Assembly: GCA_902778165.1 (NCBI GenBank)
Contig: CACYWQ010000004.1
Span: forward strand, 48,218-112,217
Direction of reading: 5' to 3'
Source: an uncultured Lachnospiraceae bacterium
GTDB taxonomy: Bacteria; Bacillota; Clostridia; Lachnospirales; Lachnospiraceae
DNA length: 64,000 nucleotides
Positions 462-41,582 of the stretch are shown here, in pieces. How positions within the stretch are numbered: the first letter of the stretch is position 1; every line of letters starts with the position of its first letter. Under the pieces are notes generated by a model that ran no database searches, was not told where the DNA came from, and saw only the letters and a program-made list of their open reading frames with translations. The translations under genes were made by a program, and so were the position numbers.

Positions 462-2453
462 ATGAGAGGAACTATCAAAAGTAAATTGACGTTTGCCGTA
501 ATACTTATCGTGGTTGCCGCGATGTTGGTATCTACGGCCATAATTGTAGGTGCTTCAGGAAAGAACCTTACAAGCAGACTTACGGGTGAACTTCAGACTA
601 ATGCCGATAAGTATGCCAATTCAATCAACAGCTGGATTGAGATGGAGAAAGGTCTTAATTCGGCAGGCGCAGCAGCCTTTGCGGCGCTTCCCGAAACTTC
701 TTATGATAGGGAACATATACAGAATATCGTAACGACTGAGGCATCGGGTCATCCCGAATTCCTTAATCTGTATTACGGTATGTCAGATAAGCAACATATT
801 CAGATGGACCCCAATGCAACGGTGCCTGACGGATATGATCCTACGGCAAGAGGTTGGTATAAGGCGGCCGCAGCAGCCGGTACAACGATTGTTACCGATC
901 CGTACATGGATGTATTGATTGGCGGTATGTGTATTACGATAGCAACTCCCGTATACAGAAACGGTGAGCTTGTCGGTGTGTTGGGTGCGGATTTTACTCT
1001 TGACTACATATCTGAAGTAGTTAACAGTATTCCTTATGAAAAGGGAGAATACGGGTTCTTAATAGATGCAAGTGCCAATTATATAATGCATGAGAATAAA
1101 GATTATCTTCCGGGTGAAGATGTTGCTACTGCAGTTTCATCGGTAATGCCTGCGATTAATTCAATTGTAACGACACCTGGAACGGAAGTTATTCTTACGG
1201 CGGATTATGACGGTGAGAAGAATTATTTCGCAACATCAACCATAGAAGGTTGCGGTTGGTCACTCGGTCTTGCAATGCCTAAAGGTAATGTAAGCGGTAC
1301 GATAACAAGACTTATAGTTACAGCCATTATTATTACACTTGTTGCTATCGCTGCGGTTGTAATCTTTATGACAAGACTTATCGGTTCGCAGCTTGCGCCG
1401 ATGGAGGATATGAAGACCTTCGTTAAGAATAAGATTATAGGCGAAGCTAATGTTAAGAAGGCGAATTCGGAGGTTGAAGAAATAAGATATCTTCTGTCAG
1501 AACTTGAGGATCGTGTTATAGATACGATTCATAAGACGCAGGATGAGTCGCAACTTATCAAGGATAAGATGGCTTCTGCATCTGATAAGATAAGCGGAAT
1601 CAATGATTCCATAACCGAGATTAATGAAGCAATGCATCGTACCGAAGGCGGAATAGAGACTCAGACCGATAGTATCAGAAGCATTGAAGAGATTTGCAAT
1701 AACGTGATGATAGCGGCAGATACCTTTGCAACGGATACAAGAGACATGACCGACAGGACGGATGAGATCATCGCAAGAGTTAAGGGCATTGTCCCGGAGA
1801 TAATAGCCAATAAGAGACATGCCGTTGAGGTTACCAACCAGACCAAGGAAGAACTTGAAGAGGCAATTAAGGGTATTCAGGTAATTGAACAGATAGTAGA
1901 AGTGGCTTCGGCTATACAGGGAATTGCCAATCAGACTAATTTGCTTGCGCTTAATGCATCGATAGAGGCAGCAAGAGCCGGTGAAGCCGGAAGAGGATTT
2001 GCGGTTGTTGCGGATGAGATCAACAGCTTAAGTACTACGACCGGAAGCGAAATAGAGAAGGTTAATGCGCTTACTAAGGAAGTAACCTACAATATTGATG
2101 AGCTCTCTAAGGTTTGTGACAGAATTGTAAAGTTCTTAACGGAAAATGTGCTTAAGGATTATGATAATCTTGAAACATTGGCAAATAATTACATGGAAGA
2201 TGCAAATTATTACGGCGATGTAAGTAAGGAACTCGGTGCAGGAGCCGAAGAAGTAAATGCTTCCGTTACGGATATCAATAATGTCTTAGAGACAATAAGC
2301 AAAGCACAGGAAGAGCTTGGCAGCGCAGTGCATGATATCTCCGGCAACATGCAGAGCATCACGGAATCAAGTGCAAATGTATCGGATGAGACTAAGGAAG
2401 TAATGGACAGCATTACTACACTGCAGGATACAACAGGAAGGTTTAATCTGTAG
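462..2453 (+). CDS. Methyl-accepting chemotaxis protein with Cache sensor
   Basis: Transmembrane chemoreceptor of 663 residues. TM1 is at residues ~8-32, an extracellular double-Cache-like ligand domain at ~35-280 (it contains ARGWYKAA and [12 protein letters not shown], typical of dCache) and TM2 at ~283-305. A long coiled-coil signalling domain follows. The hairpin tip at ~487-520 carries [19 protein letters not shown] and [11 protein letters not shown], the interface that binds CheA/CheW. The ATG at 462 was preferred over upstream TTG codons because AAGGAGG lies at ~445-451 and the protein then begins with a short basic stretch before TM1. It is monocistronic: a sigma-D-like promoter precedes it and a strong terminator follows. 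The ligand is unknown; dCache receptors often bind amino acids. Confidence 0.93.
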
Positions 2454-2495
2454 AATAACAGAATAACAAAGGTCCCCACGGGACCGGAAATATAT

Positions 2496-2530
2496 AAAAA
2501 GGCGAAGGAGTATATCTCCTTTGCCTTTTT
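2496..2530 (+). terminator. Rho-independent terminator after the chemoreceptor
   Basis: AAAAAGGCGAAGGAG pairs with CTCCTTTGCCTTTTT around a five-base TATAT loop, ending in a T-run. A smaller hairpin, GGTCCC-ACG-GGACC, sits just upstream at ~2471-2485. The A-run on the other arm means it could act in both directions. Confidence 0.85.
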
Positions 2531-2609
2531 ATGTTAAATATGTGGAAAAATAAGCAGAAAAGTTATACAATGTACAGAGTGAAATTTAAAGTTGGGGTAT
2601 TATGGGTAT

Positions 2610-3722
2610 ATGACAGGAATTATTAAGCATTTTCACGATGTTCGCCTGGTGCTTGAAGGCAAGAGACTGATCGAAGATGAAGCCAAGTATAGGATAATAT
2701 GTATCGGCGCGGCACTGATACATGTTGTATTTACAATATGTATGTATATCATGCATGCGGACATAATGGTCTACTACAATTTTTGTATTGTTGTGGCGTA
2801 TTTCTTTATGGGATTAGTCTTATCGGCAAGAAGTAAGAGAAGGCTGTTATTAGGCCTGCTGTTTGGTGAGATTGTGTTCCATTCGGCCCTTGCCAGCTTT
2901 ATGCTTGGAATAGATTGCGAGTTTATGTTATATACGGTGTCTTTGATTCCAATGGCATTCTATCTGACCAATACCGCCACGAAGAAGACAAGGCGAACCA
3001 ATTTCGCTGTGATGCTGTCTTCCTTTGTAGTATTGGCATATCTGTTTGTGAGCATAATTCATCCCAGTCAGGCGTATTATGATCTGTCTGCATACGGTTC
3101 CATTAAGACGGGAATAAGATTCTTTAATATGTTCATTGCATTCATGCTTCAGTTAAGCTTCTCGCTGCTGTTTGCATTGGAAGCGCAGTATCTGTCAAGA
3201 TTGTTAGAGAATGAGAATGTTAAGCTTACGGAAGATGCGAATGTGGATCCCCTTACCAAATTGTGGAACAGAAGAAGCCTGTCCAATGCCGTTACGGAAG
3301 CGATTAACACAATGGAACATATTGATGTATTCAGTGTTGTTATGATGGACATAGATGATTTTAAGAAAGTCAACGATACTTACGGACATGATGTAGGTGA
3401 TGAAGTGCTGGTGAAACTTGCTGAAATCATCAAAGAAGAGGTAAGAAACGGAGACTATTCCTGCCGTTGGGGTGGTGAGGAATTCCTGTTATTCGCTCAC
3501 GGACCGCGTAATGAGGTTCAATATGTGGCGGAGAGGATTCTTGAGAGACTTAAGAGTATAAGCTTTGAAGACAGAAAGGGCGGTAATTTCAGCGTAACAC
3601 TGACCGCCGGTGTTGCAGAGTTTAAATACGGTGCACAGTTAAGAAACGTCATAGAAGCTGCCGATAAGAGACTGTATTACGGTAAGACCCACGGCAAGAA
3701 TCAGATTGTAAGCGCATCATAA
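2610..3722 (+). CDS. Membrane diguanylate cyclase (GGDEF domain)
   Basis: Predicted to make cyclic di-GMP from two GTP. The ~370-residue protein has about six hydrophobic segments in residues ~20-200, a short linker, and a GGDEF domain from DPLTKLWNRR (~212) to the C terminus. The active-site motif is RWGGEEF (~287), a catalytically competent variant, and MDIDDFKKVND is present upstream of it. The ATG at 2610 is chosen; an in-frame TTG at 2592 would add six residues, and GGGG at ~2594-2597 fits the ATG better. No accessory sensor domain other than the membrane part is visible, so the input signal is unknown. One of three c-di-GMP synthesis or turnover proteins in this window. Confidence 0.88.
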   Translation: MTGIIKHFHDVRLVLEGKRLIEDEAKYRIICIGAALIHVVFTICMYIMHADIMVYYNFCIVVAYFFMGLVLSARSKRRLLLGLLFGEIVFHSALASFMLGIDCEFMLYTVSLIPMAFYLTNTATKKTRRTNFAVMLSSFVVLAYLFVSIIHPSQAYYDLSAYGSIKTGIRFFNMFIAFMLQLSFSLLFALEAQYLSRLLENENVKLTEDANVDPLTKLWNRRSLSNAVTEAINTMEHIDVFSVVMMDIDDFKKVNDTYGHDVGDEVLVKLAEIIKEEVRNGDYSCRWGGEEFLLFAHGPRNEVQYVAERILERLKSISFEDRKGGNFSVTLTAGVAEFKYGAQLRNVIEAADKRLYYGKTHGKNQIVSAS

Positions 3723-31329: not shown

Positions 31330-32339
31330 TGAAGAGCGAGCGAAATGTTTGGATTGACATAGCAAAGACTGTGGCCATAATCGGAGTTGTATTTCAACAT
31401 TTACGCGGTTGGGCTTATGATAATACTACGGTATACAATCTTATTCTGTATGCCGTGGCTTTATTTGTCTTAACAGGTGGATACAATATCATGAAGTCAT
31501 ATCTTCGTATAGGTCATGTATCCGTGCTTAAACGGATATTCAGTATGGTGATTGCATATGTGATTGCCACACTATTCTATTCTCTGTATGAAGGTGAGAT
31601 TACCAATCCGGTATATATAGCTCATAGCATCACGCATTTTGATGCATGTGCACCTATGTACTACGTTGCCGTATATATATGGCTTATGATCGGTACGTTG
31701 CCATTAGCCTTAATACTGGGTAACAAACAAGGGAAGAGCAGGCATATCAGGTTTATCGCAGGGCTAATTCTTGTAGCTGCAGTCTCATATTATACTACGG
31801 GTTATAATGATATCCTTGGAATAATCTTAGGCGGTGGCAAGATTCTTGCGGGACCGTGGTTGTTGTTCCATTATTTGGGTATGTCAGTTGCATTATATGA
31901 AGAGGAGATTATTAAGAACCTGTGCAAGCCGGTATTTTTAGGTGCCAATACGGTTATATTGATTGCATGGCAGTATGTATTTGTATTTAAGGGATATGCA
32001 GGGAGCGTTCCCGCAATATTCGGATATGAAGATCTGTTAATCTCATGGGCCACATTGCCTGAAGTGATACTTATGCTTATCTGGTTTATCCAGATGTCGG
32101 TGATAACAGGTAATAAAGAGAATGCGCTCATTAAACTGATGGCAGTACCCGGAAGATATTCGCTATATATATTCCTGTATCATATTCTGTTTCTTAAGAT
32201 ATATGTTACGCACATGCTGACTATGATGCTTAATATAAGTCATTTACTTAACAGGATAACCCTGATTGCATATGTATTCATATGCCCGATACTTCTTGGA
32301 TATTTAATGAAGGGATTTCATAAGGATAAATCTAGATGA
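31329..32339 (+). CDS. Acyltransferase-3-like integral membrane protein
   Basis: A 336-residue protein with about ten TM helices. The N-terminal pattern [21 protein letters not shown] resembles the acyltransferase-3 (OafA/WecH) family, in which an Arg-x-x-x-D..R..A..V..H start holds the active-site His. These enzymes O-acetylate or succinylate cell-surface sugars or lipids. Overlaps ispD (TAATG) and the kinase gene (ATGA), so it sits in a coupled block. Substrate unknown. Confidence 0.75.
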
Positions 32340-35149
32340 ATATGAAGAGTATGTTGGTCATAATCCAATACATCACCATCGCGGGCATGATGACAGAGTG
32401 TCTTATTGTGTTTAAGGTATGGCGAAGCAGGATGCACGGATATCTGTTCTTTAGTTGCATGGCAGCTTTGGTACATGGTGTCGGATATCTTCTGCAGTTA
32501 AATACATGGACCAGGGATGCATATATAACGGCACTTCAGTTCACTTATCTCGGAACTATTTTCTATTCCTATGCTTTATTTATGTTCATAGCTGAATTGG
32601 TAGGGATCAGGATTCGGTATTATATCAAGCTTATTCTTATTGCCATTCATTCTCTTACATACTGGACGATCCTTAATATCAAATGTAATGATCTGTATTA
32701 TAAGAATATAGAATTTGTGGTAAGGGGAATCTTTCCTAAACTTATGCATGACAACGGAATCATGCATCATGTTCATATAGCAGTGCAAATCATATATATT
32801 CTTCTTGGAATGACATGGCTTTTTATGGCTCATCATAAGGAAAGAAACGCAAGAATAAGAAAGCGTCTTACTATGGTTTTTTTGTCGCTTTTGGTACAGG
32901 CAGTCTTCTTTGTTATATATTTAATCGGTATTCCCGGCCTTTCCGATGTATACGACATCACGATGTTAGGATATTTCTTCGGAACGATTATTATGCTTGT
33001 GGCTATCTTCTCATTCGATCTTCTCGGTACGGGTGATATAGCCAAAGAATATATGATTGACAGAATATCGGAGGCAATTATCGCAACCGATGCTACGGGA
33101 GTAATACAATACTTCAATTCTCCGGCGGCAAGCTTATATCCGGGGCTTAAAAGCGGGGAAATTATCGACGTTCCGAATGAGATAACCGCTGCTGTAGAGA
33201 AAAATGATAAGATTGTCATTGATGAGCGTATATATTTACCGGAAGTAAACAGTCTTATAAGGGGCGGTGTTGATTACGGTAAATTATATGCCATGGTTGA
33301 TGAAACCGACCATTTTAAGTATATGGAGGAACTTAAGCAGCAGAAAGAGATTGCGGACTCCGCGAACAAGGCCAAGAGTAAGTTCCTTGCTAATATGTCC
33401 CATGAAATACGTACTCCCATCAATGCGGTACTTGGCATGGATGAGATGATATTAAGGGAGACTAAAGAAGATAACACACGTTCATACGCGGCAGATATAA
33501 TGTCGGCCGGCAAAACACTGTTATCGTTAATAGGTGATATCCTTGATCTGTCAAAGGTTGAAGAAGGCAAGATGGAGATTATCCCGGTACAGTATGAGCT
33601 GTCATCGCTTATTAACGATTTGGTGAATATGACTCGTGACAGAGCGATATCCAAGGGGCTTAAGTTTAATGTAAAAGTTGACAGCCACATTCCGCACCTG
33701 TTATTCGGTGATGAGATTCGTATAAGACAGTGTGTGGTCAATCTTCTTACCAATGCGGTTAAATATACAGAGAAGGGCAGCGTAACCCTGGATGTATCTT
33801 ATGCATGGGAAGATGAGACCTATATTAAACTCAAATTCTCAGTAGCAGATACGGGCATCGGTATGAAGCCTGAAGAAATGGAGGAACTGTTTGCTCCGTA
33901 TAAGAGAATGGATGAGAAGAGGAATCGCGCCATAGAGGGCACGGGACTAGGAATGTCCATCACAAGGCAACTGCTTGACCTTATGGGAACGACCCTTGAT
34001 GTAAGCAGTGAGTACGGCAAAGGCTCTGTTATTTCTTTTGCCGTAAGTCAGGGTGTTGCAGGTAAGGATGAAATCGGTGATTATTCCGCAAGATATAATG
34101 ACATAAGAAGCGGAGCATCCACATATCATGAACTGTTCCATGCGCCTGATGCAAGGATACTGGTGGTTGATGATACCGAGATGAATCTGACGGTAATAAC
34201 AAGTCTGCTTAAGAAGACCAAGATTGCAATAGATACGGCTACGTCGGGTAAGGATGCAGTGGCACTTGCTGCCGCAAATAAATATGATGCGGTATTTATA
34301 GATCATATGATGCCTGATATGGACGGAATTGATACGCTTAAGGCAATTCAAAGTGACGGACTTAATAAGGATACTCCGGCCATAGCGCTTACCGCCAATG
34401 CCGTATCCGGAGCAAGACAGATGTATCTTGAAGCGGGATTTAACGATTATCTGTCTAAACCTGTGGACGGTATTAGGCTTGAGAAGATGTTATATGAACT
34501 GATACCGGATGAGAAGATCAGGACATCGGATGAGGTTACAGAGCCGGCGGATGATACCTTGGAGAGTCTTCCGGATTGGCTTGAAAAATTAAGTGAGATT
34601 GACGTTAAGGCAGGCCTTGATAACTGCGGTTCCGTGGATGGTTATCTGTCGGTTTTAAGTGTATTCCACAAGACTGCCGTAAGTAAGGCTATAGAGATAG
34701 AGGAATTGTTTGAATCAGGTGATTATCCCGGCTATACCATCAAGGTTCATGCGCTTAAGAGTTCTGCCAGAATAATAGGTGCGGATGAGATATCTAGGCT
34801 TGCGGCTGATTTAGAGGCAGCAGGTAAGGAGAACAATACGGACTATATAACTGCAAATACCGGCAGGCTGATAAGTATGTACAGGGAACTAAACGGCAAA
34901 TTATCAGCACTTGATATGCAGGATGATAATCTTAAGGATATTGATGATAAGACCATGATAGAAGCTTATCAGACCGTTGTAGAAGTAGCACAGAGTATGG
35001 ACTATGAGATGATGGATGGTCTGCTTAAGGATATTAGGGGATACAGATTATCTTCTGAAGATAATCAGAGAATTAATAAGATAGAAGGATTATTAACGCA
35101 ACTTAATTGGGACGAAATATCAAATACTGCGCGAGAAGCGCTTAAGTAG
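32336..35149 (+). CDS. Hybrid sensor histidine kinase with 7TM sensor, receiver and Hpt
   Basis: A 937-residue phosphorelay protein. Seven TM helices at ~1-230 (7TM histidine-kinase N-terminal type), a PAS-like region ~235-325, HisKA with the phospho-His in [14 protein letters not shown] (His ~356), HATPase_c (~455-590, [10 protein letters not shown] and GTGLGMSI), a receiver with Asp ~656 in [12 protein letters not shown], and an Hpt domain with VHALKSSAR (His ~805). All phosphotransfer residues are present. No DNA-binding output, so it probably acts through the response regulator 25 bases downstream or another partner. The signal is unknown. ATGA overlap with the preceding gene. Confidence 0.93.
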
Positions 35150-35174
35150 CCATTGCATGACAGAGGAGGCAATC

Positions 35175-35951
35175 ATGAGTACAACAGATAATGCTAAGGT
35201 AGTGATAATAAGCCTTGCGGACACATTCCTAGCCAAGAGCCTTGTGACTAAGCTTGAGGGAGCGGATGTATCGTCGGTATTTGTTAAGGCTGATATTGCG
35301 GAGATTAAACCGCATATGACGGATGCGGCACTTATAATCTTATTTATGAGTGAGGAACTTGAGGGCATGCCTGAGACACTGGTATATCTTAAGGATACGG
35401 TTCAGGATAAGGACTTGGGACTTATTCTTATCGGTGATGAGTCGCAGTATGACGTAGTGATGAAGACAGTTCCCGCACAGGCGGTTACGGAATGGTTTAA
35501 GCGTCCGCTTGATATCGATAAGTTAATCAAGGATACAAGTACATATCTTGATGAGAATACGGGGGAAAAGGCTAAAAAGACAATACTTATAGTTGATGAT
35601 GACATCACTTATATGAGAACCGTATATGAGTGGCTTAAGGGCAGTTATCATGTAGGAATGGCAGCAAGCGGAGTTCAGGCCATAAGTTATCTTGCCAAGA
35701 ATAAGGCAGATCTTGTGTTGCTTGACTATGAGATGCCTGTGGCTGACGGTCCGCAGGTGTTGTCTATGCTTAAGAGTGATTCCGAGACAGGTCAGATTCC
35801 GGTAATGTTCCTTACAGGACACGGAGACAAAGAAAGTGTATTGTCAGTAGTCGGCCTTAATCCTGCGGATTATCTGCTTAAGACAATAGGTAAGGAAGCC
35901 CTGCTTAAGAAACTTGATGATTTCTTCCGTGAGAAAAGAGTTATTGTCTGA
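35175..35951 (+). CDS. Response regulator with two receiver-like domains, no output domain
   Basis: A 258-residue protein. The N-terminal ~120 residues look like a degenerate receiver (IISLADTFLAKSLVTKLEGA, no clear phospho-Asp). The C-terminal ~125 residues are an intact receiver: ILIVDDDITYMRTV, phospho-Asp ~184 in LVLLDYEMP, MFLTGHG, and LLKTIGKEALL with the conserved Lys. The ATG at 35175 follows AGAGGAGG; an earlier in-frame ATG at 35157 is less well placed. Likely partner of the upstream hybrid kinase. Lacks DNA-binding or enzyme domains, so it works by protein contacts. Confidence 0.88.
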   Translation: MSTTDNAKVVIISLADTFLAKSLVTKLEGADVSSVFVKADIAEIKPHMTDAALIILFMSEELEGMPETLVYLKDTVQDKDLGLILIGDESQYDVVMKTVPAQAVTEWFKRPLDIDKLIKDTSTYLDENTGEKAKKTILIVDDDITYMRTVYEWLKGSYHVGMAASGVQAISYLAKNKADLVLLDYEMPVADGPQVLSMLKSDSETGQIPVMFLTGHGDKESVLSVVGLNPADYLLKTIGKEALLKKLDDFFREKRVIV

Positions 35952-35990: not shown

Positions 35991-37364
35991 ATGAAGACAT
36001 CAAAAAGGGTGCTTGAATATGCCCAAAACAATTATAAAGAGGTGAAGCATACCACGCTTAATCCCGAGGGACCGGGTGTGGTAAGAATACATCTGATTCC
36101 GCCTGTTGTTACGGACGATGAGATTGGTCCGTCCGTAGCCATTATAAACGGACAGGATATTATCCCGGTAGATGTATCGTGGACAATACTGTTATCCGAA
36201 TTCATAGACGAGGTCAACAAATACAGCGGCCGTGCAGTTACTGCGAATGAGACAGAGCAGATCGTTAAGGATACAGTAAAACGAATGCGTAAAGTATATC
36301 CTTTCTTGCCGGCTAAGTATATCCGTACTGATATAGTAACCATTATGGATATATTTAAGAAGATCGCATATAGAGAGCCTCTTACGGAAGAGATCCCATA
36401 TATGAGCATAGGCGAGTATGCTCCTTATATGAGAGCTCCTCACAGAATGGATCTTATGGTATCGGCAATGACCAAGGATCAAAAATGGCACTGTAATCTT
36501 AAGTGTCTGCATTGCTATGCTGCCGGTCAGGAACATTCGGGCGAGAGTGAATTAACTACTGAACAGTGGAAGCAGATAATTGATAAACTTAAAGAAATCG
36601 GTGTACCGCAGATAACATTCACAGGTGGAGAGCCGACTATGAGGGATGACCTTATAGAACTTATCGAATACGGACAGTGGTTCGTAACAAGACTTAATAC
36701 CAATGGTATTAAGCTTACGGAAGAGTATTGCCATTCGCTTAAGGCTGCTTCTCTTGACAGCGTGCAGATAACATTCTATTCCCAGGATAAAGATATACAC
36801 AATAAGCTTGTCGGTGCAGAAGGGTATGACAGTACGGTAAGCGGTATTAAGAATGCACTTGCGTTAAATATGAGTGTAAGTGTCAATACTCCGTTGTGTA
36901 CTCTTAATAAGGACTATGTTAAGACCCTTGAATATTTACACAGCCTGGGTGTTACATATGTGACATGTTCGGGGCTTATTACTACCGGTAATGCAACTAA
37001 GGAAGAATCTGAGAGTCTTCAGCTTAATAAAGACGAAATGAGCAAGGTTCTGACCGATGCGGTCAATTATTGTTATAGTAATAATATGGAGATCAACTTC
37101 ACGTCACCGGGATGGGTAGATGATTCATTGTGTGACAAACTCGGTATTGCGACTCCCACATGCGGAGCATGCTTAAGCAATATGGCCATAACTCCCGGCG
37201 GTAATGTGGTACCTTGTCAGAGTTGGTTATCTGATGACGCGCTGGGTAACATACTTACAGATGATTGGGTGAATATTTGGGACAGTGATAAATGTGTTCA
37301 AAGAAGAGACTTCTCGGCTAAGATGTCGGGCGAATGTCCGCTTAGAAGAGGAGGTGCAAGATGA
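35991..37364 (+). CDS. Radical SAM/SPASM protein, putative modifier of the adjacent Cys-Ala-tailed protein
   Basis: A 457-residue enzyme. The radical SAM cluster motif is CNLKCLHC (Cys168, 172, 175), followed by FTGGEPTMRDDL. The C-terminal SPASM-like region has Cys391, 394, 409, ~435 and 449 (TCGAC, VVPCQ, GECP), able to hold auxiliary Fe-S clusters. The ~165 residues before the cluster are unusually long and could be a substrate-recognition domain; I cannot confirm an RRE (PqqD-like) fold by eye. SPASM enzymes commonly form thioether or carbon cross-links in peptides. The stop TGA overlaps the next ATG (ATGA), so the two products are made together. Exact reaction unknown. Confidence 0.88.
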   Translation: MKTSKRVLEYAQNNYKEVKHTTLNPEGPGVVRIHLIPPVVTDDEIGPSVAIINGQDIIPVDVSWTILLSEFIDEVNKYSGRAVTANETEQIVKDTVKRMRKVYPFLPAKYIRTDIVTIMDIFKKIAYREPLTEEIPYMSIGEYAPYMRAPHRMDLMVSAMTKDQKWHCNLKCLHCYAAGQEHSGESELTTEQWKQIIDKLKEIGVPQITFTGGEPTMRDDLIELIEYGQWFVTRLNTNGIKLTEEYCHSLKAASLDSVQITFYSQDKDIHNKLVGAEGYDSTVSGIKNALALNMSVSVNTPLCTLNKDYVKTLEYLHSLGVTYVTCSGLITTGNATKEESESLQLNKDEMSKVLTDAVNYCYSNNMEINFTSPGWVDDSLCDKLGIATPTCGACLSNMAITPGGNVVPCQSWLSDDALGNILTDDWVNIWDSDKCVQRRDFSAKMSGECPLRRGGAR

Positions 37365-38590
37365 ATAAGATGACAGGTATGTTTAAGAATTTTATAACCA
37401 AACTTCTCCTTGCAGCAGCAGTTATGACAGCAGTGTCATGTGCCATTAAAGCTGATGTATACGCCAAAGCACTTGATGAAATAACAAATTATGAAATTGA
37501 GGCGACAGTTAATGATGACGCAACTGTCACTCTTAAATATCATGTTGAATGGAAGGTGCTTGATTCCAGTTCCGAGGGACCGCTTACGTGGGTTAAGATC
37601 GGAATCCCCAATAGTCACTATACGGATATGAAGGCACTGACCGCTAATATCGATAAGATTGGTTATATGTCATCAGGTGGCTCATATGCAAGAATCGATC
37701 TTGACAGAGCATATTATTCCGGAGAGGTTGTTACATTCGAATTCAGTGTGGTGCAGGATTATCTGTATCAGGTTAATAAGCTTGCTGATGGTTATACAGT
37801 GTATTCCTTCACTCCGGGATGGTTTGATGATATAGAAGTAGATAAGATGTCGCTTGCATGGAATGCCGATAAGGCGGACAGTTGGACACCTGACTGCTAT
37901 GTGATCAACGGTAATCTGAACTGGACCCAGAAGAATATGTCACCCGGTGAGAAGTTCACCATATCGGTTACATATCCTAATGATGCATACGGCTTCGATA
38001 TGAGTAAGACTATAGAAGAAGATGATGATGATCTTGAGCATCCGGTATTGTTCGCAATACTTTTTCTGTTCTTCATGTCCATTCCCTTCCTTATATTCTG
38101 GGCAATAGGAGCGCTTATCAGTAAAGCTATATATGTGGGTCAGGCAGCTTTTGGGCTTAACAGCAATAAGAAGATTACGCGTACTAAGATTACCTATTAT
38201 GATTCATGTCCTAGCTGCGGATCTGTACGTGAAGAAGGCAAGAAGGCCTGCCCCTATTGCGGTCACAGCTATGTTAAGAGTGAAGAGGTCGTGGAGACTA
38301 AGGATATCGGAGTTAAGAATGCGGTTAAGTACAGCAAAGAGGGTACGTTTAAGTATAACGATTCACCCAATACATATATCAATGTCCATGTGGTGAATAT
38401 CCCTCGTCCCCGTTCATACAGTTCAAGTTCTTCACACCACAGCTCATGTGCACACAGCTCTTGTGCTTGTGCCTGTGCATGTGCCTGCGCCTGTGCCGGA
38501 GGCGGAAGAGCCGGATGTTCAACTAAGGACTTCTACAGAACAGACCTTAAGCTTAAGTATCTTAAGCGAATGAAATGCAAGAAGGATTAA
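37361..38590 (+). CDS. Membrane protein with zinc ribbon and (Cys-Ala)6-Gly tail
   Basis: A 409-residue protein, probable partner of the radical SAM enzyme. Layout: signal/TM helix ~8-36; extracellular beta domain ~40-225 resembling the N-terminal part of DUF2207 proteins (NYEIEATVNDDATVTLKYHV); acidic spacer; TM ~229-258; zinc ribbon CPSCG/CPYCG at ~283-303; then a Ser/His stretch and a tail with eight Cys: SSCAHSS, six Cys-Ala repeats (38462-38497), GGGRAGC, and a basic C terminus. If the first helix is a signal, the tail faces the cytoplasm, where a radical SAM enzyme could reach it. The CA codons vary (TGT GCT, TGT GCC, TGT GCA, TGC GCC), which suggests selection on the peptide. Function unknown. 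Confidence 0.8.
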   Translation: MNKMTGMFKNFITKLLLAAAVMTAVSCAIKADVYAKALDEITNYEIEATVNDDATVTLKYHVEWKVLDSSSEGPLTWVKIGIPNSHYTDMKALTANIDKIGYMSSGGSYARIDLDRAYYSGEVVTFEFSVVQDYLYQVNKLADGYTVYSFTPGWFDDIEVDKMSLAWNADKADSWTPDCYVINGNLNWTQKNMSPGEKFTISVTYPNDAYGFDMSKTIEEDDDDLEHPVLFAILFLFFMSIPFLIFWAIGALISKAIYVGQAAFGLNSNKKITRTKITYYDSCPSCGSVREEGKKACPYCGHSYVKSEEVVETKDIGVKNAVKYSKEGTFKYNDSPNTYINVHVVNIPRPRSYSSSSSHHSSCAHSSCACACACACACAGGGRAGCSTKDFYRTDLKLKYLKRMKCKKD

Positions 38591-39578: not shown

Positions 39579-40343
39579 ATGATTAAATGTCCTAACTGTG
39601 GGGCCGAGATAGACAGTAATCTCGCCAAATGCTCATACTGCGGTTATATTAATATACATGGTGCAGAGAAGAAGTATCTTGATAACCTTGAGGATATCAG
39701 GGAGAATCTTGAGGCTGTTAAAGAAGAACCCGTTAAAGCGCTTAAAGAAGGAGTATCCAAGGGAACCAAAGTCGTTATCCTGACCGTGGCTACGCTTCTA
39801 GTATTGCTCGTTGCCTGTACGTTAAGGCTATTCTATGAGTCTAAGGATAAGCCCAAGTTATTCTTAAGTGCCGAGGATGAAGCATATGCTTCCGCATACC
39901 GGATTATTGCGGGAGAACAGTTATCTGCGGCTTATGATGATAAAGATATAGAACAGATGGCTGCAATATTTGATAAGGCATATTCTGAAGACAGAGTTTC
40001 TCTGTGGGGAGATCCTCACTATGAAACTGCATATGCAGCAAGTTGCTATATGAAGCTTAAGAAGTGTCTGCCGAATCTTGACAAAGATAAGATAAGCAAG
40101 CATGAAGCCGAGGAGATAACATATTATTGCTTCTATTTCTATTACAGAGCATACGGAGAAGACGGCAAAGATTTATTTGATTCAATCAGGGATGAAGAGA
40201 TAATGCCCATAATAACGGACAGACTTGGATTCAGTATTGAAGATATGGAGAACTTCAGAGATAAGGTAACGGATCCGCCGCATGTTAACAGAACGAATGT
40301 ATACAGAGTGGCGGTTAAGAAGAATTATAAGAATTACCATTAA
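39579..40343 (+). CDS. Zinc-ribbon single-TM protein, function unknown
   Basis: A 254-residue protein with an N-terminal zinc ribbon CPNCG...CSYCG (~4-22), a charged linker, one TM helix (~67-88) and an extracellular helical domain. The N-terminal ribbon and central TM are shared with the next gene, suggesting paralogy or a common assembly. ATG at 39579; the ribosome site is weak. Upstream in-frame codons lie within the previous gene and are rejected. Confidence 0.68.
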   Translation: MIKCPNCGAEIDSNLAKCSYCGYINIHGAEKKYLDNLEDIRENLEAVKEEPVKALKEGVSKGTKVVILTVATLLVLLVACTLRLFYESKDKPKLFLSAEDEAYASAYRIIAGEQLSAAYDDKDIEQMAAIFDKAYSEDRVSLWGDPHYETAYAASCYMKLKKCLPNLDKDKISKHEAEEITYYCFYFYYRAYGEDGKDLFDSIRDEEIMPIITDRLGFSIEDMENFRDKVTDPPHVNRTNVYRVAVKKNYKNYH

Positions 40344-40352
40344 GAGGAAGTA

Positions 40353-41141
40353 ATGATGAAGTGTAAGTATTGCGGATATAATATCGGACTTGAGGATGAA
40401 TACTGTCCCCATTGCGGCAAATTAAACGAACTGGCGGCTGCGCATATTGCAGATATGAAGCACTATGAAGAGGATTATAAGCAGACCAAGGAATCGGTTA
40501 TCACAAAGAGCGCCAGGTTTAACAGCAGGACGGGAAGACTAATGGTCATAGCGATATTGCTTATGATCATTGTCATTTTGCTTGGAATAGCCGCCAGATA
40601 TTCGGATGTTGAGACAAGAATAAATGTTAAAAAACAGAGGACGGAGAAAGCGGTAGAGAAGAACAGGCAGGATATTACGGCTACTCTTAAGGAGATGGAG
40701 GAGCACAGAGAATATCTGGCCATGAGATATTATGTGCTTAATCATCAGCTAAGAAGCGATGATACTTACAATGATTACACGCGAGTATTCACTGCGGTAA
40801 TAAACTATGGGGCAATATATGATGATATTCTAAATATTGTCGACGGATATGAAGGGTACGAAGATACGGGCAAGAAGCAATGGTGCGATGATATGGCAAT
40901 ATACATATCCAACTGGAACAGCTATGTAGGCGGTGAGTTCTGGGGTGATTCACCCGATTCGCCGATGCATTCGGGTGAACACGGTGCATTCATAGCGGAT
41001 GCCAAGAAAGAGACGCAGGATATGGTTCAGGTATATTTTAAACTGTCGGATGAACAGGCTAAGAAAATGTGGACTATGGATAAGGATGAGGTAGCTCGGA
41101 TGTTATATGAGAAGTGCGAAGAACTGTATCCGGAGGAATAA
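40353..41141 (+). CDS. Zinc-ribbon single-TM protein, function unknown (second)
   Basis: A 262-residue protein: zinc ribbon CKYCG...CPHCG (~3-20), a ~40-residue linker, TM helix (~65-83), and an extracellular domain with several Trp/Tyr-Gly motifs (NWNSYVGGEFWGD). Two adjacent ATGs (40353, 40356) follow AAGAGGAAG; the first is given. Same layout as the previous protein. It lies ten bases after that gene and three bases before the next. Confidence 0.7.
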   Translation: MMKCKYCGYNIGLEDEYCPHCGKLNELAAAHIADMKHYEEDYKQTKESVITKSARFNSRTGRLMVIAILLMIIVILLGIAARYSDVETRINVKKQRTEKAVEKNRQDITATLKEMEEHREYLAMRYYVLNHQLRSDDTYNDYTRVFTAVINYGAIYDDILNIVDGYEGYEDTGKKQWCDDMAIYISNWNSYVGGEFWGDSPDSPMHSGEHGAFIADAKKETQDMVQVYFKLSDEQAKKMWTMDKDEVARMLYEKCEELYPEE

Positions 41142-41144
41142 GCG

Positions 41145-41582
41145 GTGAGTAGGCATAAGGAGAAGAAGAAAAAAGATCCTATAGTTACACTGTTGGATTT
41201 TATAATAGTCATAATGATATTGGCGATGATCCCTGTCGGAATTAATGCATGGTTTTATTTGGACAGATTAAACTATACCGGCTCTTTCACACAGGATGCA
41301 TCGAGGATGTCCTTTGATCTTACCAGAGATGATTATGCGTCGTTAATTCAGGGCAAATACGTCAATGAATTTAACGGTATTACCGAATCGGTGAGCTACC
41401 ACGCTCTTGCGGATTATACGGAGGCCGTATCCAAATATAAGGTATATGAAGGCAAAGGATATACCGACAAAGCGGATAAACAGAAGGAGATCATGGACAG
41501 ATCCCGTAATAATTTGGGAGAGCTTACCGTATTTGCCGACAAAGTCGATGCAATGTTTGATATGGACAGTATTGCGGATTAA
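41145..41582 (+). CDS. Small single-TM protein, function unknown
   Basis: A 145-residue protein: strongly basic start (HKEKKKK), one TM helix (~14-36) and an acidic/polar extracellular part of ~105 residues ending in DKVDAMFDMDSIAD. GTG start at 41145 with GGAGG at 41132-41136. Lacks a zinc ribbon, but its outer domain may be related to those of the two preceding proteins. Last gene of the block that starts at ispD or at the radical SAM gene. Confidence 0.62.
   Translation: MSRHKEKKKKDPIVTLLDFIIVIMILAMIPVGINAWFYLDRLNYTGSFTQDASRMSFDLTRDDYASLIQGKYVNEFNGITESVSYHALADYTEAVSKYKVYEGKGYTDKADKQKEIMDRSRNNLGELTVFADKVDAMFDMDSIAD

Follow-up and report, generated by a model that had tools for sequence, protein, structure and literature searches.

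A radical SAM enzyme gene paired with a gene for a Cys-Ala-tailed membrane protein: a candidate cassette for in-place tail modification

Radical SAM enzymes with RRE domains are known mostly from small peptides and cofactors, and SPASM enzymes act on repeated Cys motifs of the ACGX and similar types within short peptides. SkfB is described as a Twitch enzyme with one auxiliary cluster, and an N-terminal RRE is reported in each of SkfB, CteB and SuiB (PMC6231123). The quinohemoprotein amine dehydrogenase maturase QhpD is a radical SAM enzyme reported to install thioether links in a subunit of a working protein (PMC8172795). DUF2207 proteins are described as having the N-terminus outside and a Gly/Ser-rich stretch inside, and a member from S. 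mutans affects stress tolerance and biofilm (PMC10457818).

Within the window (the whole stretch of DNA analysed, 64,000 nucleotides), a radical SAM enzyme gene (35991..37364; 457 aa) is followed by the gene of its putative substrate, a membrane protein (37361..38590; 409 aa), both genes and their parts lying on the + strand; the four-base overlap of the two genes, proposed in an earlier note, is a shared ATGA read directly. No paper on the pairing of a radical SAM enzyme with a Cys-Ala tail was found in the open-licence literature, judged by title, a search of open-licence papers for ACGX-type Cys-repeat targets gave nothing, and no curated family covering the pairing was found in Pfam or among the best NCBIfam matches listed.

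The two proteins and the Cys-Ala tail

The enzyme matches the Pfam families Radical_SAM (4.7e-21) and SPASM (4.8e-7), both above cut-off, and belongs to the radical SAM superfamily, with the Cys triad of the CxxxCxxC cluster motif (C168, C172, C175; 36492..36515), located by alignment of homologues, invariant in 35/35 of them. The SPASM-type assignment made earlier agrees with the Pfam match, while the second auxiliary-cluster motif is absent in the window's clade. The C-terminal region, of Twitch/SPASM type, carries an auxiliary-cluster region (C391-xx-C394...C409...C435...C449; 37161..37337) in which C391, C409 and C449 are invariant among the 35 aligned enzymes and C394 is present in 34, and which is without the CxxCx5CxxxC segment of distant relatives; this segment is missing in 25/35 enzymes, the window's included, with a SPASM-like stretch carried by ten distant enzymes, in one of which its first Cys is replaced. 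From these motifs, Twitch-like appears to describe the window enzyme better than a seven-Cys, two-cluster SPASM. The motif filter behind the 35-row alignment omitted the tail loci L008, L016, L018, L035, L043, L048 and L069; the first six, as well as L069, still have the enzyme by blast.

No NCBIfam cut-off is reached by the window enzyme (best 25 of 71 matches) or by three homologues; the best scores, to NirJ2, AhbC/D (heme), WgkB, PqqE and MoaA, are mixed and all far below cut-off, so the enzyme is not assignable to peptide maturases from sequence alone. The best solved relative by sequence is SkfB (1.1e-18). With a model of the enzyme (pLDDT 77.6, built on 12 sequences), Foldseek ranks 1 to 10 are all SkfB, SuiB, CteB or TigE chains, with the peptide maturases SkfB at rank 1, SuiB second and CteB at rank 3 (TM-scores 0.44-0.52 by query length), over alignments of 424-476 columns that suggest participation of the N-terminal domain. 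This domain (residues 1-130; 35991..36380) is predicted to consist of strands (19-23, 31-36, 48-52, 56-60) and then three helices (62-76, 85-102, 108-126); an RRE or PqqD family was not found in it by Pfam and PDB sequence scans, and its modelled topology and the Foldseek matches would fit an RRE-like fold.

The membrane protein opens with an N-terminal hydrophobic segment recognised by hydropathy, a signal or anchor (residues 11-29; 37391..37447), followed by an outer all-beta domain (residues 38-215; 37472..38005), a single transmembrane segment supported by hydropathy and model (residues 228-258; 38042..38134), a zinc ribbon of the form CxxC...CxxC (C283, C286, C297, C300; 38207..38263), the tail core CAHSS(CA)6GGGRAGC, the proposed modification site (38447..38518), and a STKDFY segment conserved in the Lachnospiraceae type (38519..38536). 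The eight-Cys tail was recovered as previously read, comprising C363-AHSS-C368, six consecutive Cys-Ala (368-379), GGGRAG and C386; an extra Cys, C404, lies near the end of the protein, outside the motif. One full copy of the tail protein is present in the window's genome. Among named relatives, the four nearest (69-77% identity) all carry Lachnospiraceae labels, with sheep rumen and reindeer as the sources of two.

Across 40 tail proteins, length ranges from 319 to 474 aa, and hydropathy places an N-terminal hydrophobic segment and one transmembrane segment ahead of the tail in 40/40, with some overlapping double peaks; the tail itself scores hydrophobic in nine distant proteins, and L054 has another hydrophobic stretch behind it. 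The charge behind the transmembrane segment is mostly, not always, more positive. Since one transmembrane segment precedes the tail, and given this flanking charge, the tail is most likely cytosolic, on the same side as the enzyme, in agreement with the cytoplasmic placement first suggested.

The resemblance of the outer domain to DUF2207, also part of the earlier note, survives only in weak form: PF09972 scores 15.1 bits against a gathering score of 24.4 (E 0.027), and 'DUF2207-like' is a weak label for the window's protein because this match falls below cut-off. DUF2207 appears at E<=0.1 in 7/14 aligned relatives (best 0.012), with no match in the window's own genome at E<=0.001, and the sole listed NCBIfam match of the tail protein is weak and unrelated. 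In the model of the membrane protein (mean pLDDT 70), the ectodomain is all-beta, with similarity to portions of oligosaccharyltransferase subunits and of M1 aminopeptidases (TM-scores <=0.35 by query length), a resemblance at fold level that is without functional meaning here. Both CxxC pairs of the zinc ribbon are present as described, with the Pfam match below cut-off; absent in 14/40 homologues, the ribbon is placed outside the conserved core and ruled out as a mechanistic part.

The most conserved part of the membrane protein is the tail: within the Lachnospiraceae type, mean identities are 0.88 (tail), 0.53 (zinc ribbon) and 0.48 (ectodomain), and between groups they are 0.74, 0.14 and 0.25 in the same order. 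The proposal that the repeat is kept as peptide is borne out by the (CA)4 that precedes the glycines and the final AGC, which are invariant in 40 tail proteins with freely varying codons (at every invariant site, each of the two codons for Cys or the four for Ala is in use), ruling out a chance or low-complexity artefact. In the class members L078-L080, V replaces A before GC, and one also has V for the first G. The 24 distinct cores hold 5 to 10 Cys each, a count from which the second tail of G850, with Tyr for one Cys, is left out as lying outside the pattern. For Cys before the last one (n=177), the next residue is Ala in 160, Val in 13, Gly in 2, Tyr in 1 and His in 1; with Ala or Val thus following 173/177, the conserved unit is Cys-(Ala/Val) in variable copy number. 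Longer spacers between Cys units are mostly Ser/His-rich, and the segment after the core is clade-specific, being KDFY in the Lachnospiraceae type and xxKF or SERGYQVL elsewhere. Residues 351-390 are modelled without structure (pLDDT blocks of 30-37). A YxzE likeness of three distant tail proteins was below cut-off and taken as composition, and a formylglycine-type Cys motif was rejected for a spacing mismatch.

Co-occurrence and genomic setting of the gene pair

With the full-length tail protein as query (E<=1e-3), 21 of 200 genomes from the same family gave a match; 16 of these are true tail proteins and five are partial matches, four of which lie around the transmembrane segment and zinc ribbon, the fifth (G082) covering the ectodomain. 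The G082 protein (locus L020) is an ectodomain relative at ~20% identity, and neither tail nor enzyme lies in its 3.5 kb. A tail-only profile, A1, built from 24 fragments, found the tail in 16/200 of these genomes, and the enzyme was found in the identical 16, adjoining the tail gene in 16/16; the chance of an identical set, 1/C(200,16) = 6e-24, is a guide only, as it ignores shared ancestry. Enzyme presence calls are threshold-dependent (1e-50 in the family, 1e-60 in the phylum). Among the 398 genomes of the phylum sample, the enzyme occurs in 11 and the tail in nine, all inside the 11; in the enzyme-only genomes, the tail ORF of G428 ends at the stretch end within the Cys run, and the stretch of G543 holds an N run and ends early.

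The class sample of 391 genomes has the tail in 11, with the enzyme beside the tail gene in nine, among them G925 with its split tail gene, and a tail ORF that reaches the contig end in the remaining two (G806, G844); an enzyme protein search of 128 class genomes returned the window's own only, and bears on the pairing in neither direction. In the genus sample, the tail is present in 10/20 genomes, including 3/5 of the most complete, and the cassette is considered dispensable because half of the sample is without a tail; all 10 also have the enzyme, a short distance away on the contig that carries the tail gene, and it is present too in G624, where it starts at base 1 of its contig. The family of G287 has the tail in 8/13 genomes, the sole new tail (L069) also with the enzyme upstream, and G596 of this family is without a tail match. 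The enzyme lies upstream of the tail gene in 15/15 loci found among genome contigs, and in two other families enzyme homologues at 35-39% identity adjoin a tail protein with (CA)n-GG(G/R)GAGC.

A tail protein with no neighbouring radical SAM gene, the observation that the earlier note set against its own proposal, was encountered in no readable case in the family, genus, class and phylum samples, an outcome in favour of that proposal, and the gene pair is real and exclusive in the samples searched. Distances of enzyme and ectodomain are correlated (rank correlation 0.89 across 33 loci, 0.71 across 25 of Lachnospiraceae type), which is consistent with shared inheritance. A minimum of eight families, all within a single bacterial phylum, carry the cassette (f1, f59, f121, f163, f169, f187, f190 and f208), a spread that suggests age or transfer. 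Two cassette contigs (L042, L048) are labelled Eggerthellaceae and Coriobacteriaceae, reflecting either horizontal transfer or mis-binned metagenome contigs. Spread by plasmid was rejected after a search of 72,556 plasmid records at 1e-30 gave no match to the enzyme, as was spread by phage, viral contigs giving 600 pattern matches and no tail-protein relative.

Flanking genes differ between loci, which defines the cassette as one of two genes. The first gene on either side of nine other loci gave 18 proteins, three without a Pfam match at 1e-5, including triosephosphate isomerase, amylase, a chemotaxis receptor, MatE, SpoIIE, POR and PPIase; a YjbR/DNA_binding_1 protein stands beside the cassette twice among the nine (L036, L039), the cell-wall-type peptidases (S66 in L036, M15 in L045) are not recurrent, and no recurring peptide exporter or leader peptidase was found among the 18. 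A wider operon was rejected after comparison of 11 window neighbours with 20 loci, with close recurrence for IspD alone (L034); the MatE-type match of one window neighbour is found in L040 and L041 at ~21% identity. In the window, a response regulator recognised by Pfam precedes the enzyme gene by 39 bases and, together with a large ORF that is sensor-kinase-like by eye (32336-35951 for both), may regulate the cassette in this genome; neither of the two was seen to accompany the cassette at the 20 comparison loci, of which several contribute only short upstream sequence. Shortly downstream, beyond the next gene, 39579-40343 and 40353-41141 encode proteins that each give a zinc-ribbon match under the cut-off and show a hydrophobic segment by eye, and 41145-41582 encodes a small protein that has no Pfam match at E below 0.9; at the same 20 loci none of the three was found next to the cassette. 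One cassette (L037) adjoins a TIR-domain protein of 807 aa (1049-3469), with no sign that it belongs.

Two loci depart from the usual arrangement. G850 (L084:3782-7075) has two tandem tail proteins and then one enzyme gene, looking like one enzyme with two substrates, and from this reversed order the pairing is seen to withstand a change of gene order. In the single-contig genome G925 (L083:7663-11950), an insertion, carrying what read as transposase-like ORFs, splits the tail-protein gene, and the enzyme ORF is open.

Proposed modification of the tail

That the two genes travel together suggests an enzyme altering the tail, rather than one making a secreted peptide, and the tail is very probably its substrate. 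The favoured reading, given a probability of roughly 0.6, is a dedicated cassette in which the adjacent enzyme modifies the cytosolic tail of the membrane protein in place, most likely by thioether formation. The enzyme would bind the tail of the protein encoded beside it, with its RRE-like N-terminal domain, the KDFY/GGGRAGC flank or both as the probable site of contact; a 5'-deoxyadenosyl radical and an auxiliary Fe-S cluster would then act on the Cys-Ala/Val units. The links, at whose chemistry one may guess, would most likely be thioethers of sactionine or ranthionine type, joining the sulfur of Cys to carbon atoms of the small residues that alternate with it, and a thioether is judged the likelier product by a modest degree; to our knowledge, strict Cys-Ala alternation is unlike known thioether cores, which counts against it. 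The membrane protein would be neither cut nor exported as a peptide, and the product would be a cross-linked, thiol-depleted cytosolic surface on a single-pass protein with a beta domain outside; its role is guessed to be that of a stiff assembly or signalling surface replacing the Gly/Ser-rich inner tail of DUF2207 type.

The cross-link made by SuiB is not a thioether, and the enzyme might likewise modify the tail by other chemistry, such as Cys oxidation, epimerisation, decarboxylation or C-C linking at the conserved Ala, Gly or Arg, with the Cys run as a recognition element or cofactor ligand. This is the most plausible of the alternatives, although unlikely overall: family membership, as seen in the NCBIfam matches, leaves the chemistry unfixed, and SuiB, second in the structural list, cross-links two side chains (PMC6231123), whereas the structures at Foldseek ranks 1 and 3, SkfB and CteB, act on Cys, and the varying number of Cys-(Ala/Val) units, giving 5 to 10 Cys, fits Cys as reaction sites. 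The same drift in Cys number while the enzyme stays argues against a tail that serves as a metal-binding, Fe-S-binding or redox-sensing element, for which the enzyme would be a maturation or repair partner or would act elsewhere in the pathway. In favour of such an element are the eight Cys that follow a zinc ribbon and the predicted lack of structure in the tail (pLDDT 30-37), as in an apo metal site, but the ribbon is missing in 14/40 tail proteins and strict C-A alternation is not known as a common spacing of metal ligands, leaving it improbable. Membrane-proximal Cys clusters can be acylated, and a further alternative is that the tail Cys are S-acylated or disulfide-linked and the enzyme is an operon passenger unrelated to the tail; co-occurrence and adjacency in eight families, in otherwise different neighbourhoods, make this reading very hard to credit.

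Returning to in-place thioether modification, the idea that a RiPP-type enzyme permanently cross-links a (Cys-Ala)n tail, so that a single-pass membrane protein carries a stapled surface inside the cell that is genetically encoded, is put at even odds. If true, RiPP chemistry would build a membrane protein, rather than secreting a natural product. Should the enzyme act on the tail, peptide stapling would also serve as a lasting post-translational modification on an integral membrane protein, and a simple periodic substrate with variable Cys-Ala number would ease the study of mechanism and processivity. The cassette also offers an entry point for studying an uncharacterised family of membrane proteins.

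Comparison with known systems

In its proposed action, the pair resembles a RiPP maturase whose target is a membrane protein, outside the curated maturase families and the natural product pathways. Neither the window enzyme nor three homologues fall within a curated maturase family (best 25 NCBIfam matches), and where a RiPP natural product system has a small leader precursor, protease and exporter, the putative substrate here is large and transmembrane and the flanks are without a recurring exporter or peptidase. With the sactipeptide and ranthipeptide maturases SkfB, CteB and AlbA, the enzyme shares a radical SAM core, an auxiliary-cluster domain and an N-terminal domain modelled with strands and helices in the order seen in an RRE. 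Its best matches by structure and by solved sequence include SkfB and CteB, and its Twitch-like reduction is as in SkfB. Identity to SkfB, SuiB and CteB is nonetheless <=20% in structural alignments, and those systems differ in having a small leader-core precursor, in place of the putative membrane protein substrate, and in that no recurring peptidase or exporter lies beside the cassette among the genes scanned. ACGX-type targets are short peptides, in contrast to the membrane protein here. DUF2207 proteins such as S. mutans SMU.243 share the outer N-terminal domain, transmembrane segment and inner low-complexity tail; they differ in that here Pfam DUF2207 falls below cut-off (best 0.012), the tail is Cys-Ala and an enzyme is its partner. 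QhpD offers the parallel of radical SAM thioether links placed in a subunit of a working protein and not in a natural product, although QhpC is a small dehydrogenase subunit with links to Asp/Glu and the tail here is a Cys-Ala tail of a membrane protein, and the two systems are likened by modification.
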